Assembly: GCA_947445025.1 (NCBI GenBank)
Contig: CANFCB010000006.1
Location: 1 to 42,722, forward strand
Length of the DNA: 42,722 bases
Source: Myxococcales bacterium
GTDB lineage: Bacteria > Myxococcota > UBA727 > JABDBI01
Reading direction: 5' to 3'
Positions 13,864 through 34,902 of this stretch are shown here, in pieces (the stretch's first letter is position 1; every line of letters starts with the position of its first letter). The translations under genes and the position numbers were made by a program. The notes below the pieces were generated by a model. It searched no databases, was not told the DNA's origin, and was given only the letters and a program-made list of their open reading frames with translations.

Positions 13864-13888
13864 AACATATATTATGCAGGGAGATCAA

Positions 13889-15148
13889 ATGGATATAAAA
13901 ATTGAACCGCACACAGATCGTATACCGGAACTTGACCAAGAACCAGGACGACCGTTAGAACCTCCTCCTAAAGGCCTTCCCAATACAGACACTGCTCCTC
14001 GGCACATCGATACTGACAAAGACACGAAGGAAGCACTATCTGCTTTAAATAGCTCGCCGCCCCATGATAAAATAATCATGCATTTTAGAAGCATTATAGC
14101 AGATATCAACAAAGCCGAGCGTCCCATAACTAATCTCGATGACATAAAAACTGCTGTCAACAAGGCTAAGTCTTCTGTTTCTGATGGCGTGTGGAATAAT
14201 ATTAAAAAATGGTTTAGCAAATCACACCGAGACCTGTCCGATAATGTTAACAACGAACATAGCGAGATATTTAAAGCAATTGGCACTCACGAGGTACACA
14301 TGAAGCAAGCTCAGGTTGCTACCGCGCTGGCAGCTGAAAATGCGGGTCTCAAACGACAGCTGGCTGAACAACAAAAAGCGCACAGTGACATGGCAGCAGA
14401 ACGTACCAGGAACCAGCTCGATTATAATAGTCAAGCAGCTGGTGATTCCACGCAACTAAATGAGGCTCGCCAGGCGCTAGAAGCAAGTCAAACAAAAAAT
14501 GATGATCTCAAGCGACAACTAGAAGAGGCCAACCAAACGCTTCTCACTACTTCTCAACTAGAAAAAAATTACGATGCACTGAAAGAAAAGCTCGTTGTTC
14601 AAGAAGCAAGTATGAAATTGCTAGAACAAAAATTGGCAAATCCCAATCCTGAGTCTTCAAGAATAGATCAACCAGAGCAAACAGAAATAGATGTACAGCT
14701 GACAGAGTTGCAAAAAGAATTAAAGGACATAAAAGCAACACTAGCTACCGTTCGAAAAAATCTAACAACTGCCCAGGATGACAATAATACTCTTTCAGCT
14801 CTTAATGTTGAACTTGATATCAAAAATTCTGCTATGACAGTAAAATCCGTCAAAAATAGCGCAGAAAGAGAAAGACTCACGAAAGAAGTTGAAAAATTGG
14901 CAGCTGAATTAAGTGACAATGAAAACGTACTAAAAGAGTCAGATGCAGGTAATACGCATAGACTAGATCAAAATACGGAGCAGTTACTGAAAACCCATGA
15001 GGAAGCCATAGCGACTCTAAAACAACAAAATGCGCTTGATGTGCAAACAGCAAAAACCGAAGCCATGGAAACATTAATTGCTGGGCTGCAAAAAAAGCTC
15101 TCACAAGAATTGCTGGCTGAGGTTCAGAAAGCGTTAGCGAAGACGTGA
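13889..15148 (+). CDS. Coiled-coil-rich protein of unknown function (paralogue 1)
   Basis: I do not recognise this 419-residue protein. I start it at the ATG at 13889, 5 nt after AGGGAG; an in-frame ATG at 13874 lies too close to the predicted transcription start. Residues 1-45 are Pro- and Asp-rich and probably disordered. A conserved block SSVSDGVWNNIKKWFSKSH (95-113) follows, then a long predicted coiled coil (~130-390) rich in Gln, Lys, Glu and Leu (LKRQLAEQQ, LKRQLEEAN, LTELQKELKDI). The C-terminus is an amphipathic helix. There is no signal peptide or membrane segment. The next gene shares the block, the C-terminal helix and the promoter. An inverted repeat (15133-15139/15150-15156) spans the stop codon. 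Function unknown; a structural or secreted effector-like role is conjecture. Confidence 0.75.
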   Translation: MDIKIEPHTDRIPELDQEPGRPLEPPPKGLPNTDTAPRHIDTDKDTKEALSALNSSPPHDKIIMHFRSIIADINKAERPITNLDDIKTAVNKAKSSVSDGVWNNIKKWFSKSHRDLSDNVNNEHSEIFKAIGTHEVHMKQAQVATALAAENAGLKRQLAEQQKAHSDMAAERTRNQLDYNSQAAGDSTQLNEARQALEASQTKNDDLKRQLEEANQTLLTTSQLEKNYDALKEKLVVQEASMKLLEQKLANPNPESSRIDQPEQTEIDVQLTELQKELKDIKATLATVRKNLTTAQDDNNTLSALNVELDIKNSAMTVKSVKNSAERERLTKEVEKLAAELSDNENVLKESDAGNTHRLDQNTEQLLKTHEEAIATLKQQNALDVQTAKTEAMETLIAGLQKKLSQELLAEVQKALAKT

Positions 15149-15243: not shown

Positions 15244-15975
15244 ATGGAACACTTAGTTGACAAAAAAGTGAATGCCCAACACCCGGATTTCGCTGGCGAC
15301 AAATCTCTAAAACCAGCAGGGAAGCCTCCTACTGCGAACAGCGCTGATATGTTTATCCATACTGATACCAACGCCAAGCCGAACACGAAAGAGACAGTAG
15401 CACTTTTAAAAAGTGCTGACACCGCAGAGATCGACAACCATTTAAACGATATTTTAACTGCACTAAAATCCACTGATCAGGATACCGATCTCACTAAGCA
15501 TATCAGCAAGATACAGGAAGCCGCAGAGAACGCGAGGTCTTCTGTTTCTGATGGCGTTTGGAATAATGTTAAAAAATGGATTAGCCCATCACACCTAGCT
15601 TTACACAATAGAGTCAACGATACTTTTAATAAGATAGCAGGTGCAGTTGATAGTTACCCAGCACTTAAAGCAAGTAGAGATAAGATAGCACAACTGACTG
15701 CTGATAGCATCAGACAACAGGCCAGCCTAGAAGCTGCCCAGAAAGAAGCCCAGCAGAACATAAAAACGCTAACTGATACAAACAAATGGCATGAAGCAAA
15801 CTCGGTGCAGCTAAATAAAGACCTGCAAGACGCAAAGTCTGTCGTCAGATCACAATTAGCAACTGGTGTAGGCAACGCAGAAAATTTACTGAATGTGCTG
15901 GGAAAAAATTTACCAGCAAAATTATTCAATGAAGTTTTATCCGAGTTAGATAAAAAAAAGAAAGATAAAAAATAA
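15244..15975 (+). CDS. Coiled-coil protein of unknown function (paralogue 2)
   Basis: A 243-residue paralogue of the preceding gene. A polar, Pro/Asp-rich N-terminus (1-50) is followed by a helical stretch. Then comes the shared block SSVSDGVWNNVKKWISPSH (99-117), a shorter predicted coiled coil (~145-205) and a C-terminal helix (NAENLLNVLGKNLPAKLFNE) that aligns with the end of paralogue 1. It ends in a very lysine-rich tail. The block is nearly identical at DNA level too: a 21-bp run at 15537-15557 equals 14170-14190. There is no signal peptide or transmembrane helix. A doubled ribosome-binding site, AGGAGCAGGA, precedes the ATG. It ends 1 bp from the convergent propeller-like gene. No known function. 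Confidence 0.75.
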   Translation: MEHLVDKKVNAQHPDFAGDKSLKPAGKPPTANSADMFIHTDTNAKPNTKETVALLKSADTAEIDNHLNDILTALKSTDQDTDLTKHISKIQEAAENARSSVSDGVWNNVKKWISPSHLALHNRVNDTFNKIAGAVDSYPALKASRDKIAQLTADSIRQQASLEAAQKEAQQNIKTLTDTNKWHEANSVQLNKDLQDAKSVVRSQLATGVGNAENLLNVLGKNLPAKLFNEVLSELDKKKKDKK

Positions 15976-30151: not shown

Positions 30152-31636
30152 ATGTCCCTTTATGAAAAACTGAAACAAATCAAAGGAAAGTCGGTTGTAG
30201 TAGCTGGAGCTGGAATTTCAGGAATATCCGCATGCAAATTTCTAGAAACACTGGGCGCGAACATTGTTTTAGTTGATGATGCCGACCTCGAGCTTATCCA
30301 AAAACGCATAGCCTCTTCAGGAGGGATTCCTGCTTGCGTATCGCTACAGCAGGGTATTAAATCTAGCATTACTTTGCAAGCTGAACTGATTATATTGTCT
30401 CCCGGTATCAGCAAAAATCACGTGGCTATTCAAGAGGCATTGGCTCACAGTATTCCGGTTATTAATGAACTCGATCTAGGCGCGGCCTTTCTTACCAGTT
30501 GCCATTTTGTCGGCATCACCGGAACCAATGGAAAATCCACCACGGCGACGATATTAGGTTTTATTGCCAAAGCCTTCGACGCCAACGCATTTGTCGGCGG
30601 CAATCTAGGCATTCCTTTGTGTGAAACTTTAGTAAAAGGCGTTTTGCCTAAAATCGCTGTTTTAGAATTATCAAGCTACCAGCTAGAGCTTCTGGAATTA
30701 CTGAGACTAGACGCTGGCGTTATCACCAATCTCACTCCAGACCATCTGGATCGTTACCCAAATGTAGAAGCTTACTACCTGGCAAAAGCAAAAATTTTTG
30801 ACTTGCTGCATACAACTGGTAGCGCGATTTTAAATCACGAAGATCCCAATTCGAAAATATTTCTCTTGGATCATGCTGCCCATCCTCGGCTGGATTTCAA
30901 TGTCAAACTAGGCGACCAAGGCATAGCAATTAAAGGCAACACCCTGCTTATTAATACCCCAACTTTGCAAGCAACTCTGACGCTGAATCAGGAACAATTT
31001 TTAGGCCAACACAATTACCAAAATGCCGCAGCGGCGGTTGCGGCGGCCCTCGCTTTAAATATTCCACTAGCCATCATTCAGAAAGGCCTGGATAGCTATA
31101 CCGGAATTGCCCATCGCTTAGAATCTTTAGGTTATGCTCAAGGCATCCGTTGGGTAAATGACTCCAAGGCCACCAACGTAGAATCCGTCTTGATTGCCAT
31201 GCAAAATTTCTCTGAAGGTGTGCATCTCGTCGTGGGCGGACTTGGAAAAAATTCGAGTTATGCGCCTTTGGTTAACTTCTGCCAGGGACGCGTCAACGCG
31301 ATTTACGCCATTGGACAAGATGCACCTAATTTAATGGAAGCTTTTAAAGATTTTGTTTGCTTCGATGCTAAGACTTTAGAAAACGCCGTCTTGCTGGCAC
31401 AAAAAAATGCACAAAAGGGAGACACAATCTTGCTATCTCCAGCCTGCGCCAGCTGGGATCAGTTTGAAAGCTTTGCCCATCGCGGTGATAGTTTTCGAAA
31501 ACTCTTTGAAGAAGCGAAGGCTTCGTCATTGCGAACGAAGGTGAAGCAATCCAGAGCCAAAAAGAGACTGGACTGCCACGTCACTAACGTTCCTCACAGT
31601 GACGATACGGGAGCATATAAAGGAAAAAGGAAATGA
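30152..31636 (+). CDS. murD: UDP-MurNAc-L-alanine--D-glutamate ligase MurD, with C-terminal extension
   Basis: Adds D-glutamate to UDP-MurNAc-L-Ala. The N-terminal Rossmann part begins VVVAGAGISGISACKFL. The P-loop is GITGTNGKST, with VLELSSYQLELL, NLTPDHLDRY and WVNDSKATNVES further on. The normal family C-terminus is reached at about residue 455 (LLSPACASWDQFESFAHRGDSFRKLFE, given in outline). About 37 extra residues follow, mostly encoded by a palindromic element at 31524-31604. The tail is basic and not like MurD. At 494 residues the protein is longer than most (~440-460). The ATG of ftsW overlaps the stop by 4 nt, so coupling is kept despite the insertion. Confidence 0.95.
   Translation: MSLYEKLKQIKGKSVVVAGAGISGISACKFLETLGANIVLVDDADLELIQKRIASSGGIPACVSLQQGIKSSITLQAELIILSPGISKNHVAIQEALAHSIPVINELDLGAAFLTSCHFVGITGTNGKSTTATILGFIAKAFDANAFVGGNLGIPLCETLVKGVLPKIAVLELSSYQLELLELLRLDAGVITNLTPDHLDRYPNVEAYYLAKAKIFDLLHTTGSAILNHEDPNSKIFLLDHAAHPRLDFNVKLGDQGIAIKGNTLLINTPTLQATLTLNQEQFLGQHNYQNAAAAVAAALALNIPLAIIQKGLDSYTGIAHRLESLGYAQGIRWVNDSKATNVESVLIAMQNFSEGVHLVVGGLGKNSSYAPLVNFCQGRVNAIYAIGQDAPNLMEAFKDFVCFDAKTLENAVLLAQKNAQKGDTILLSPACASWDQFESFAHRGDSFRKLFEEAKASSLRTKVKQSRAKKRLDCHVTNVPHSDDTGAYKGKRK
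31524..31604. repeat. In-frame palindromic element within the 3' end of murD (RPE-like)
   Basis: An 81-bp imperfect palindrome. The left arm begins CGTCATTGCGAACGAAGG and runs to AGCAATCCAG; the right arm starts CTGGACTGCCACGTCAC and ends CGTTCCTCACAGTGACG. Such CGTCATTGCGA...CAATCCAG elements resemble the Rickettsia palindromic elements and similar repeats of other proteobacteria, some of which sit inside genes. It encodes about residues 458-484 of MurD. Relation to RPE is by resemblance only. Confidence 0.8.
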
Positions 31637-32757
31637 AACTGCTGCCTTATAAAGTTTTGCTTTTTTGCGTTTTTGTTTTAGTGATGTTTGGCCTCGTCAT
31701 GGTTTATTCAAGTTCCGCTATCGTATCTGGAGCCGTCAACCACGATTCATTTTACTTTGTTAAACGGCAACTGGTTTTTATTTTTTTGAGCTGCGGCGCC
31801 TTTGTCTTCGCGCTTTATATTCACCCTGATTTATATCAGCGCTACGGCTATCCAATTTATATCGCCATGCTGCTGCTACTGGCCTCGTTACTGGTGCCTG
31901 GCATCGGCAAATCAGCTGGCGGCGCTGCGCGTTGGATCTCGCTTGGGGTATTCAGGCTGCAGCCAGGTGAACTTTTTAAGTTTGCCTTAATCGTTTATTT
32001 GGCAAAATCGTTAGCAAAAAAAGCTAACCACATGACTTTGTTTTCGGTGGGCATCGTTCCGCATATTATTATCCCTGGCGTCGCTATGGTTCTGCTCATG
32101 CTGGAGCCAGATTTTGGAACCACTTTTATGGTAGCCACCCTCACCTTTGTGATGCTTTTTATTGGAGGAGCACCGGTAACTTATTTGTTACTTGGCGTTC
32201 TCATCGCCATTCCGGTCGCACTGCAAATGATTACCAGTAGTCATTATCGATTAGAACGCGTGATTGCATTTTTAGATCCTTGGTCGCATCGACAGAATGA
32301 AGGTTATCAAGTCGTGGAAAGCCTTATGGCCTTTGGATCCGGCGGATTTTGGGGTTTAGGCTTGGGACGGGGACCGGGAAAATTGCACTTTTTGCCAGCA
32401 GCGCACACCGACTTTATTTTGGCGATTATAGGCGAAGAGTTTGGCTTTGTCGGAATCTCAGTTATTATCATTTGTTTTTTGTTAATCGTCATTTGTGGAT
32501 TTAAAATTGCACTGTCTTTAAAAGATCCTTTTCAAATTTATTTAGCCGCAGGTCTCACCACCTTAATGACCTTGCAAGCTATTTTTAACGCCTTCGTCGT
32601 CATGGGCTTAGTTCCCACCAAAGGCATCACTCTGCCATTTGTCAGTTACGGCGGCAGCAGTTTGATTATGAGTTGTTTTATGGCAGGCGTCCTGGTGCGT
32701 TTAAGCCAGGAATCCACGACTTTGGCTGATTGCGATCTCAAGGAGACCACAACATGA
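31633..32757 (+). CDS. ftsW: Septal peptidoglycan polymerase FtsW (SEDS family)
   Basis: A SEDS-family glycosyltransferase that polymerises lipid II at the septum with FtsI. It has 374 residues and about ten membrane spans. Motifs include GLVMVYSSSA, GAARWISLGVFRLQPGE, LEPDFGTT with the conserved acidic residue, and HTDFILAIIGEEFGF, then GLVPTKGITLPFVSYGGSS. The short N-terminal cytoplasmic tail starts directly at the first membrane span. It overlaps murD by 4 nt and murG by 4 nt. AAGGAAAAAGGAA precedes the ATG. Confidence 0.96.
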   Translation: MKLLPYKVLLFCVFVLVMFGLVMVYSSSAIVSGAVNHDSFYFVKRQLVFIFLSCGAFVFALYIHPDLYQRYGYPIYIAMLLLLASLLVPGIGKSAGGAARWISLGVFRLQPGELFKFALIVYLAKSLAKKANHMTLFSVGIVPHIIIPGVAMVLLMLEPDFGTTFMVATLTFVMLFIGGAPVTYLLLGVLIAIPVALQMITSSHYRLERVIAFLDPWSHRQNEGYQVVESLMAFGSGGFWGLGLGRGPGKLHFLPAAHTDFILAIIGEEFGFVGISVIIICFLLIVICGFKIALSLKDPFQIYLAAGLTTLMTLQAIFNAFVVMGLVPTKGITLPFVSYGGSSLIMSCFMAGVLVRLSQESTTLADCDLKETTT

Positions 32758-33839
32758 AACTCATTATTGCCGGCGGTGGCACCGGTGGCCATGTTTACCC
32801 TGCCATTGCCCTAGCCCAAGCTCTGCAAAAAATAGACAAAAACTCGGAAGTGCTCTTTATCGGCACCGAGTTAGGAATGGAAAAATTCGCAGTACCCCAA
32901 GCTGGGTATTCTATCGAATTTATCCACGTCTCCGGGATCAAAGGCCGCTCTTTCACGAAAAAGCTCCGCGCTTTCTTGCAGATTCCCTTTGCTATTTTAT
33001 CTTCAATTAAAATTTTGCGCCGAGAAAAACCCGACGCCCTGCTTGGTGTCGGCGGTTATGCTTCTGGGCCCTCTTTGCTCGCGGCCTGGATGCTCAGAAT
33101 TCCTACTGCTATTTTAGAACCAAACAGCATTCCTGGTTTCACCAATCGCATTTTGGCATTTTTTGTGCGCAAAATTTTTGGCGCTTTTCATAAAACCGCC
33201 GCTTATTTTTCCAGTAAACATTTTATAGTTGTCGGTGGTCCTCTTAGACAAGAATTTTTATCAGCAGCTTTACCCACAGAAAAAAAAGATAATAAAGTTT
33301 TTCATCTCTTGGTGGTCGGCGGCAGTCTTGGCGCCAAAGCTCTAAACGATGTCGCGCCCAAGGCCTTGTCTTTTTTAAAAGAGCGCCATCTGACTTTACA
33401 TGTTGTGCACCAAACGGGAAAAGGTGATTTTGAACGGGTCCAAAAACTATATAAAGACTTGCATGTTGATGCAGATGTCCGGCCTTTTATCGACGACATG
33501 GCAGCAACATATGCGCAAGCCGATTTAATTATTTGCCGCTCAGGAGCAGGAACTTGTGCGGAAATCACGGCCATGGGCCTACCCGCAATTCTAGTTCCCT
33601 TTCCCCACGCCATTTATGACCACCAAACGGAAAACGCCAAAGAACTAGTCGAAACCGGTGCCGCTATTTTATTACCCCAAACCGAAATGACACCAGAGCG
33701 TCTCGCCCTAGAGATATCTGAACTCATCCGTATACCTGCGAATCTGAAACGCATGCGGCAAGCAGCATTAGCCCTGGGCAGAACCGATGCCGCTGAGCAA
33801 ATCGCCAAATCAGCACTTAATAATTTTTTACTGCGATAA
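32754..33839 (+). CDS. murG: Lipid II synthase MurG (UDP-GlcNAc transferase)
   Basis: A peripheral membrane GT-B glycosyltransferase that adds GlcNAc to lipid I to form lipid II. The 361-residue product starts at the ATG at 32754 (overlapping the ftsW stop, with AAGGAG 8 nt upstream). GGGTGGHVYPAIALA is at 7-21, LLGVGGYASGP and EPNSIPGFTNR lie in the N-domain, and GGSLGAKALND and CRSGAGTCAEITAMGLPA then FPHAIYDHQTENA in the nucleotide-binding C-domain. It is intact. About 0.9 kb downstream lies a decayed copy of its last ~280 bp. It is the last gene before the interruption of the dcw cluster. Confidence 0.96.
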   Translation: MKLIIAGGGTGGHVYPAIALAQALQKIDKNSEVLFIGTELGMEKFAVPQAGYSIEFIHVSGIKGRSFTKKLRAFLQIPFAILSSIKILRREKPDALLGVGGYASGPSLLAAWMLRIPTAILEPNSIPGFTNRILAFFVRKIFGAFHKTAAYFSSKHFIVVGGPLRQEFLSAALPTEKKDNKVFHLLVVGGSLGAKALNDVAPKALSFLKERHLTLHVVHQTGKGDFERVQKLYKDLHVDADVRPFIDDMAATYAQADLIICRSGAGTCAEITAMGLPAILVPFPHAIYDHQTENAKELVETGAAILLPQTEMTPERLALEISELIRIPANLKRMRQAALALGRTDAAEQIAKSALNNFLLR

Positions 33840-33877
33840 ATAATTGCCAATAAAAGGCGACCAACCCAATTTCCTGT

Positions 33878-33902
33878 CCCCCTTTCTCTTTTTGCCAGAA
33901 CA
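33878..33902 (+). repeat. 25-bp direct repeat, left copy, flanking the murG-murC insert
   Basis: The 25 bp from CCCCCTTTCT to TTGCCAGAACA match the copy at 35491-35515 in 23 of 25 positions, in the same orientation. The two differ only at positions 10 and 11. Confidence 0.75.
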
Positions 33903-33963
33903 GGTTGCTGCGACGCCAAAGCATAGGCAACGTGTGGAGCAATGACGAGCATCAATTTGTCCT

Positions 33964-34299
33964 TTAGCCTACTACGCGTACTCGTTTGTTCGGAGCGGTT
34001 GTGGCTGGAAATGTAACCCGAATCTGAGTCAGGCCTCCTAAGTGCTGCAGGTAATTTAAAAGCTTTTCGATGCTCATCTTAGAAATTTTTCCATTTAGGA
34101 GCTCGCTCACGCGAGGCTGTGGCTGGTCTAGTACTTTTTCAAGATCCCGCTGCTTGTAGCCCCTCTTTTCGACAACGTCCAAGATTGAATTAAGGAGGGC
34201 GGCCTTTATCTCCAATGCTTCACTCTCGGCTTCATCGAAACCCAGATCTTTGAAAACACTCCCTGTTGTGACGTGACTTGCAGTATTTTTCTTTTTCAT
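33964..34299 (-). CDS. higA: HigA-type helix-turn-helix antitoxin
   Basis: A 111-residue Xre/HTH_37-type antitoxin. It neutralises the toxin encoded just upstream and probably represses the operon. The helix-turn-helix core is GYKQRDLEKVLDQPQPRVSELLNGKISKMSIEKLLNYLQHLG (outlined; about residues 47-89), with the RVSELLNGK recognition helix. An N-terminal helical segment (FDEAESEALEIKAALLNSI) is of the kind that contacts the toxin. It is the second gene of the operon, overlapping the toxin stop by 4 nt (ATGA). The toxin-first order is the HigBA pattern. The symbol is by family, not by orthology. Confidence 0.85.
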   Translation of the reverse strand: MKKKNTASHVTTGSVFKDLGFDEAESEALEIKAALLNSILDVVEKRGYKQRDLEKVLDQPQPRVSELLNGKISKMSIEKLLNYLQHLGGLTQIRVTFPATTAPNKRVRVVG

Positions 34300-34655
34300 T
34301 TTTTTGCCTCCCGAATTCTCACTAAGACCCTTTTCAATCTAATTTCAGCGGTTTCTAGGTCGTTCCTACTTGTCTTTGCGCTCTGCTTTTCGAACGAATG
34401 GAGCACATAGACAGTGTCCTCTATTTTCGCGAGATAGATGACGCGATACCAAGCTCTTTCATCCGCTTCTTTAAGTTCAAAAACCCCAGATCCTATGCTC
34501 GTCATTGGTTTTGAGTTTGCTGGCAGCCTCCCCTGTTGAAGAAGATCAAGAGCAAAACCCAAATCTTTTCGTACGTCGTCTGGAAACTCTCGCAGAATAT
34601 CCAGGGAATCACCCTCCCAAGCGATCTTTGCCCTTTTCTTGCTTGCTCGCTGCAT
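34296..34655 (-). CDS. higB: RelE/HigB-type toxin (phage Gp49-like family)
   Basis: A 119-residue toxin of the RelE/ParE superfamily, Gp49-like branch. Members usually cleave mRNA on the ribosome. The N-terminal lead is WEGDSLDILREFPDDVRKDLGFALDLLQQG. The core strand region is GSGVFELKEADERAWYRVIYLA, then DTVYVLHSFEKQSAKTSRNDLETAEIRLKRVL, with the family-typical F-x-K and A-x-x-R positions. It starts at an ATG with GGGGG 6 nt upstream. It lies antisense to the dcw genes. Base use seems a little different from the neighbours, with longer runs of AT-poor codons in the core, but I have not measured this. It appears intact. Confidence 0.85.
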   Translation of the reverse strand: MQRASKKRAKIAWEGDSLDILREFPDDVRKDLGFALDLLQQGRLPANSKPMTSIGSGVFELKEADERAWYRVIYLAKIEDTVYVLHSFEKQSAKTSRNDLETAEIRLKRVLVRIREAKK

Positions 34656-34671
34656 TTCGAACCCCCAAGAT

Positions 34672-34711
34672 TATACCCTTTAGTGTATACGAAATTCAGT
34701 ATAGATGTCAA
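34672..34711 (-). promoter_or_regulatory. Promoter and palindromic operator of the toxin-antitoxin operon
   Basis: On the minus strand, TTGACA (34711-34706) and TATACA (34689-34684) are separated by 16 bp. An inverted repeat TATAC-N8-GTATA (34672-34689) overlaps the -10 box, the expected place for autorepression by a HigA-type antitoxin. Confidence 0.6.
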
Positions 34712-34749
34712 AGAGAATTTAATGAACCCTAGGCCGTAAAAGTGTGAGC

Positions 34750-34902
34750 GCGGAAATCACGGCCATGGCCTACCCGCAATTCTAAATTCCCTTTCCCCAC
34801 GCCATTTACGACCACCAAACGGAAAACGCCAAAGAACTAGTCGAAACCGATGCCGCTGAGCAAATCGCCAAATCGGCACTTAATAATTTTTTATTGCAAT
34901 AA
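34750..34902 (+). pseudogene. Decayed second copy of the murG 3' end
   Basis: From CGGAAATCACGGCCATGG to the terminal TAA this segment matches murG 33559-33839 closely, for example the 31-bp run around CGGAAAACGCCAAAGAAC. One base is lost near 34767 and one gained near 34785. A 129-bp piece (murG 33653-33781) is missing exactly between two copies of AACCG(G/A)TGCCGCT. It has no start codon or known function. Confidence 0.92.

Follow-up and report, generated by a model that had tools for sequence, protein, structure and literature searches.

The window, by which we mean the whole 42,722-nucleotide stretch of DNA analysed here, carries the usual cluster of division and cell-wall genes, including mraY-murD-ftsW-murG-murC-murB-ftsQ-ftsA-ftsZ, in which the names other than murD and ftsW were read from the translations. 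On the plus strand, murD (30152–31636) encodes a protein of 494 residues with three Mur ligase Pfam domains. Residues 15–453 match TIGR01087 (375 bits), and since the murein-ligase homology stops at residue 453, 41 residues lie beyond the core. This C-terminal extension (residues 454–494, EAKASSLRTKVKQSRAKKRLDCHVTNVPHSDDTGAYKGKRK; 31511–31633, plus strand) is set apart by the protein ends of relatives, by its calculated pI and by a structure model. The next gene, ftsW (31633–32757, plus strand; TIGR02614, 402 bits), begins within murD, its start lying over the murD stop in an ATGA read from the sequence and the open reading frames (31633–31636, plus strand), and a likely ribosome-binding site for it, AAGGA, can be read on the same strand at 31620–31624.

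Near the 3′ end of murD lies an 81-bp palindromic repeat (31524–31604, plus strand). A preliminary description of this DNA had proposed such a palindrome here, lying in frame and supplying MurD with a basic tail, and both parts of that proposal hold. The RNA of this segment folds into one long hairpin of −27.5 kcal/mol, compared with −16.2 ± 2.8 kcal/mol for shuffled sequences (z −4.05), with none of 200 shuffles equally good. The murD copy has unequal, inverted arms, and CGTC stands at both outer ends: the left arm, CGTCATTGCGAACGAAGGTGAAGCAATCCAG, is followed by a spacer and then by the right arm with its GTGACG end. The repeat encodes residues 458–485, that is, most of the extension, and residues 458–494 include the peptide LDCHVTNVPHSDDTGAYK. 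From residue 458 onward the calculated pI is 10.5, as against 6.0 for the MurD core. The frame used is the only stop-free one among the three forward frames of this copy.

The window holds a single copy of the element; the remaining 12 full-length copies lie elsewhere in the genome, a draft metagenome-type assembly of 1,085,086 bases (1.09 Mb) in 43 contigs, 73% complete. BLAST over this draft matches the element at 13 places, and a search with a covariance model and the consensus recovers the same 13 full-length copies, while neither the covariance model nor BLAST found isolated half elements in this genome. In the copy alignment, both inverted arms with CGTC-type ends on the outside are present in 13 of 13 copies, and the consensus arms, roughly CGTCATTGCGAGCGAAGGCGAAGCAATCCAG and CGTCATTGCGAGGAGCGTAGCGACGTGGCAATCCAG, stand head to head across a short spacer, their CGTC ends outermost. 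As DNA, the consensus dimer folds strongly (z −7.2) and the lone arms poorly, the left arm forming a 5-bp stem (z −0.4 to −0.6) and the right arm reaching z −0.05 to −1.6; the unit in this genome is the full dimer of 72–81 bp. Over the 13 copies, 38 of 78 frames are open, against about 28–29 (s.d. 4) in shuffled or random stretches, and we rejected the idea that the element is unusually stop-poor overall because this excess is only modest. Other dispersed repeats surround several of the copies, many of them at contig ends (L010, 1400–1700, and contig ends of G000, the window's own genome), which makes this genome repeat-rich for its size; one 301-base stretch that includes the element (L010, 1400–1700) has 22 matches.

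The preliminary description had likened the palindrome to Rickettsia elements that enter coding genes, and the genome-wide count bears this out, with 13 full-length copies of which at least one other lies in frame in a conserved gene. This copy, on contig C41, sits inside the gene for EpmA (TIGR00462, 314 bits), so that one gene flanks it on both sides, and adds about 27 residues in frame, IVIASVGEAIQTNNLDYLVASAPRSDD, in a loop. It is read in a different frame of the element than the murD copy, here too the sole stop-free forward frame, and 19 aligned relatives have nothing alike at that place. Most other copies in this genome lie at or near contig ends and repeats, with no convincing conserved open reading frame across them, and we therefore claim only MurD and EpmA as coding cases there. 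AlphaFold models of both proteins show intact cores (mean pLDDT 93.7 for MurD and 91.1 for EpmA). In MurD the last helix (441–476) reaches into the residues that the element encodes, and beyond it the tail is predicted to be disordered, with pLDDT falling to 45; in EpmA the insert forms a low-confidence loop (pLDDT 44–49). Judging from the models, both inserts would occupy exposed sites and leave the fold preserved.

The tail is not common to relatives. MurD ends 2–17 residues past the aligned core in 37 relatives, with a couple ending even earlier, and 2 residues past it in the six same-family members examined; across 80 named genomes the distance has a median of 3 and never exceeds 20 residues, compared with 41 here. 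The element is absent from MurD in all of these 37 relatives and 80 named genomes, so that the tail is not a conserved, shared feature, and the further copies in the genome mark it as repeat DNA. The MurD identity to the nearest relatives is only about 45–55%. The preliminary description had also held that the insertion kept the ATGA overlap with ftsW. The four-nucleotide overlap is real, but it is not ancestral: in the clearest family relatives (G007, G003 and G005) the ftsW ATG precedes the murD end by 11 nt, for example ATGATCTCTAG, indicating that the murD-ftsW junction has been rebuilt.

The guess of a deltaproteobacterial type of genome is correct under the older use of that name, the organism belonging to the Myxococcota. 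A tree of MurD sequences places the window's family in one group with most of its order, and genomes labelled with the same phylum cluster with named Archangiaceae and other Myxococcota; the phylum assignment thus rests on this one-gene link together with kinship labels. Genomes of the family members examined span 0.3–1.8 Mb, which makes this a genome-reduced family of Myxococcota. One member (G002, contig C1) is a single-contig genome of 311,743 bases listed as 87% complete, very small for the phylum, which still has MurD and EpmA-like genes.

Within this family, full or half copies of the element turn up in the sister genera G003, G007 and G005; searching 8 genomes from the order's other families gave none. 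In the sister genera, copies lie in frame in a nucleotidyltransferase (an NTP_transf_5 protein, L098) and at the C-terminus of a prolyl oligopeptidase (L103), and in ThiL of G005 a half element lies in frame in a loop whose length varies among relatives. A further in-frame case is the end of a MepB-like protein (L101), where the stop codon falls within the repeat. A 292-residue frame in G005 (L115, contig C239) combines a helix-turn-helix domain with a half element, and some of its stretches (VIPDLIRDPV... and RLGGRDDNMELDPG) resemble derivatives of another repeat, so that several repeat types may be present in one gene; since these other repeat-derived stretches seem to lie inside it, we do not claim this frame as a coding case.

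Rickettsia and Wolbachia are the best-known hosts of protein-coding palindromes. CGTC-tagged REPs have been described in five phyla, mostly as head-to-head dimers, some within genes and some at gene ends; their units have an 8–9 bp stem and a 4–5 nt loop, some intragenic copies encode 20–30 residues, about 10% of intragenic units lie at gene 3′ ends, and Rickettsia RPE-6 and RPE-4 correspond to CGTC-1 and CGTC-4 (Di Nocera et al. 2013, PMC3733652). Aligned with that description, our element shows the terminal CGTC tag, AT as the first stem bases and the CCA tail at the inner arm ends, as well as unequal facing arms, copies within open reading frames and the lack of a dedicated transposase. It differs in that a single arm has a 5-bp stem and folds at about the shuffled level, where published units have 8–9 bp, and in that the full dimer is the unit, with isolated halves not found in its own genome; the phyla named there include Proteobacteria in the old sense and not Myxococcota (PMC3733652). 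Since its arms lack the 8–9 bp stem, we call the element CGTC-REP-like and RPE-like and do not file it as a member. Plasmids of Novosphingobium and Methylosinus carry full-length repeats that resemble it.

The likeness to Rickettsia RPE-4, RPE-6 and RPE-7, which in R. japonica carry ATGAC motifs and lie at solvent-exposed sites (PMC3767692), rests on shared ATGAC/GTCAT ends as compared with that description, and extends to multi-copy palindromes lying in frame in conserved genes, at exposed sites of the proteins and in small genomes. RPE host genes include tRNA synthetase and cell-wall genes, as here, and according to a review a guanylate kinase of Rickettsia that carries an RPE is both translated and active (PMC2229807). 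The phylum is different, the genome of the window being of Myxococcota and not of Rickettsia or Wolbachia origin, and the element measures 81 bp in murD against 100–150 bp for RPEs. In being short, non-coding, multi-copy and apparently non-autonomous, with inverted repeats, the element also resembles MITEs as reviewed (PMC10969869), from which it differs in that neither a target duplication nor a parent transposon was found for it. A literature text search for the arm sequence returned nothing relevant.

A multi-copy palindrome that lies in frame in conserved genes and is absent from their orthologues, as in MurD and EpmA, works like an RPE. We conclude that the element is very probably a dispersed, non-autonomous, MITE-like repeat, a near-neutral piece of selfish DNA that was inserted into murD and made protein-coding. 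Such a repeat, presumably mobile, would have spread through this genome and the sister genera of the family, and one copy would have entered the 3′ end of murD in its only stop-free forward frame, either within the final codons or at the murD-ftsW junction, the old stop being lost later. MurD would thereby have gained about 40 C-terminal residues, and its stop would have come to overlap the ftsW start. Because this end of MurD follows the last conserved helix and is probably exposed, enzyme activity should be preserved and the insertion tolerated; we take it to have been neutral or nearly so. That only the used frame is open in the coding copies is what the survival of tolerable insertions would leave, and a special mechanism of gene entry would not be needed. 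The element is best read as being like head-to-head dimers of CGTC-tagged REPs and like RPE-4/6/7, tolerated where the frame is open and the site exposed.

Could the hairpin instead have been kept for an action at the RNA level in the mur-fts operon, such as mRNA stabilisation, attenuation or control of ftsW translation, with the tail as a by-product? Consistent with this are the strong predicted hairpin (z −4.05), the frequent position of REPs directly 3′ of genes, where they are thought to work in RNA (PMC3733652), and two paired double changes in the murD copy relative to the consensus (G-C to A-U and C-G to U-A), which leave its helix intact. Such paired changes might just as well stem from template-switch repair at imperfect palindromes, however, and covariation over the 13 copies, which revealed no conserved RNA function of the element, is no better than in shuffles, 469 of 500 of which reach its score. 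Relatives lack the element at the murD-ftsW site, and translating the end of MurD would require ribosomes to open the hairpin. In the fold of 31501–31660, the hairpin does not include the AAGGA of ftsW, and together with covariation at the shuffle level this leaves the earlier idea of hairpin-ftsW coupling without support. We regard an RNA role as unlikely.

It is very improbable, in our view, that the tail was recruited for a function of its own, for example in binding membrane phospholipid, RNA or divisome partners near FtsW or MurG. Its high pI and the predicted helix extension would suit such a role, but the differences of the murD copy from the consensus mostly change amino acids in the murD frame, which looks like drift and not like selection for the peptide, and all relatives examined do without it. 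That a repeat was collapsed into murD by faulty assembly or binning can scarcely be credited: several other copies do lie near contig ends, where assemblies break, but the murD copy sits inside a contig of 42.7 kb on which murD and ftsW follow each other as expected and the frame stays open throughout, and the EpmA copy likewise has one gene on both flanks.

A genome-reduced family of Myxococcota may perhaps have undergone, independently, a Rickettsia-like wave in which a palindrome added peptides to MurD, EpmA, ThiL and other proteins, and such protein invasion could be a recurrent consequence of genome reduction and not a rickettsial peculiarity; we offer this wider reading tentatively. The evolutionary novelty is smaller than the preliminary description had supposed, since coding palindromes outside Rickettsia have already been published (PMC3733652). 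The kind is known; of this lineage and these host genes we found no description in the literature searched. With a distant genome-reduced lineage, essential enzymes and several independent insertions in one family, this is a second system in which to ask whether such inserts are merely tolerated selfish DNA or have turned useful, and whether genome reduction favours them. For annotators, it means that repeat DNA can account for a basic C-terminal tail peculiar to one lineage.

As a driver of the element's mobility we considered a RAYT-type enzyme and rejected it, as the genome's own Y1 (IS200/IS605-type) transposase is not flanked by the element. This gene, the only such gene found (G000, contig C2, 3914–4258; L235, 1486–1941, 151 residues), has no element copies within about 1.5 kb on either side. 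Its flanks instead carry different, long inverted repeats (CCCCGGATGAAATCCGGGG), and in this it is similar to tyrosine transposases bordered by TIRs (PMC3733652). Elsewhere in the window (33558–34902), a decayed second copy of the murG 3′ part lies at about 34750–34902, with pieces 87–95% identical. Between murG and this fragment lies a toxin-antitoxin pair on the minus strand (Gp49/HigB-like and HTH_37/HigA-like, 33964–34655), a layout as if insertion of the pair had duplicated the murG end. Two adjacent genes with no Pfam matches (13874–15148 and 15244–15975) share a 70-nt segment that is 87% identical (14162–14231 and 15529–15598), suggesting local duplication of long, probably coiled-coil proteins.
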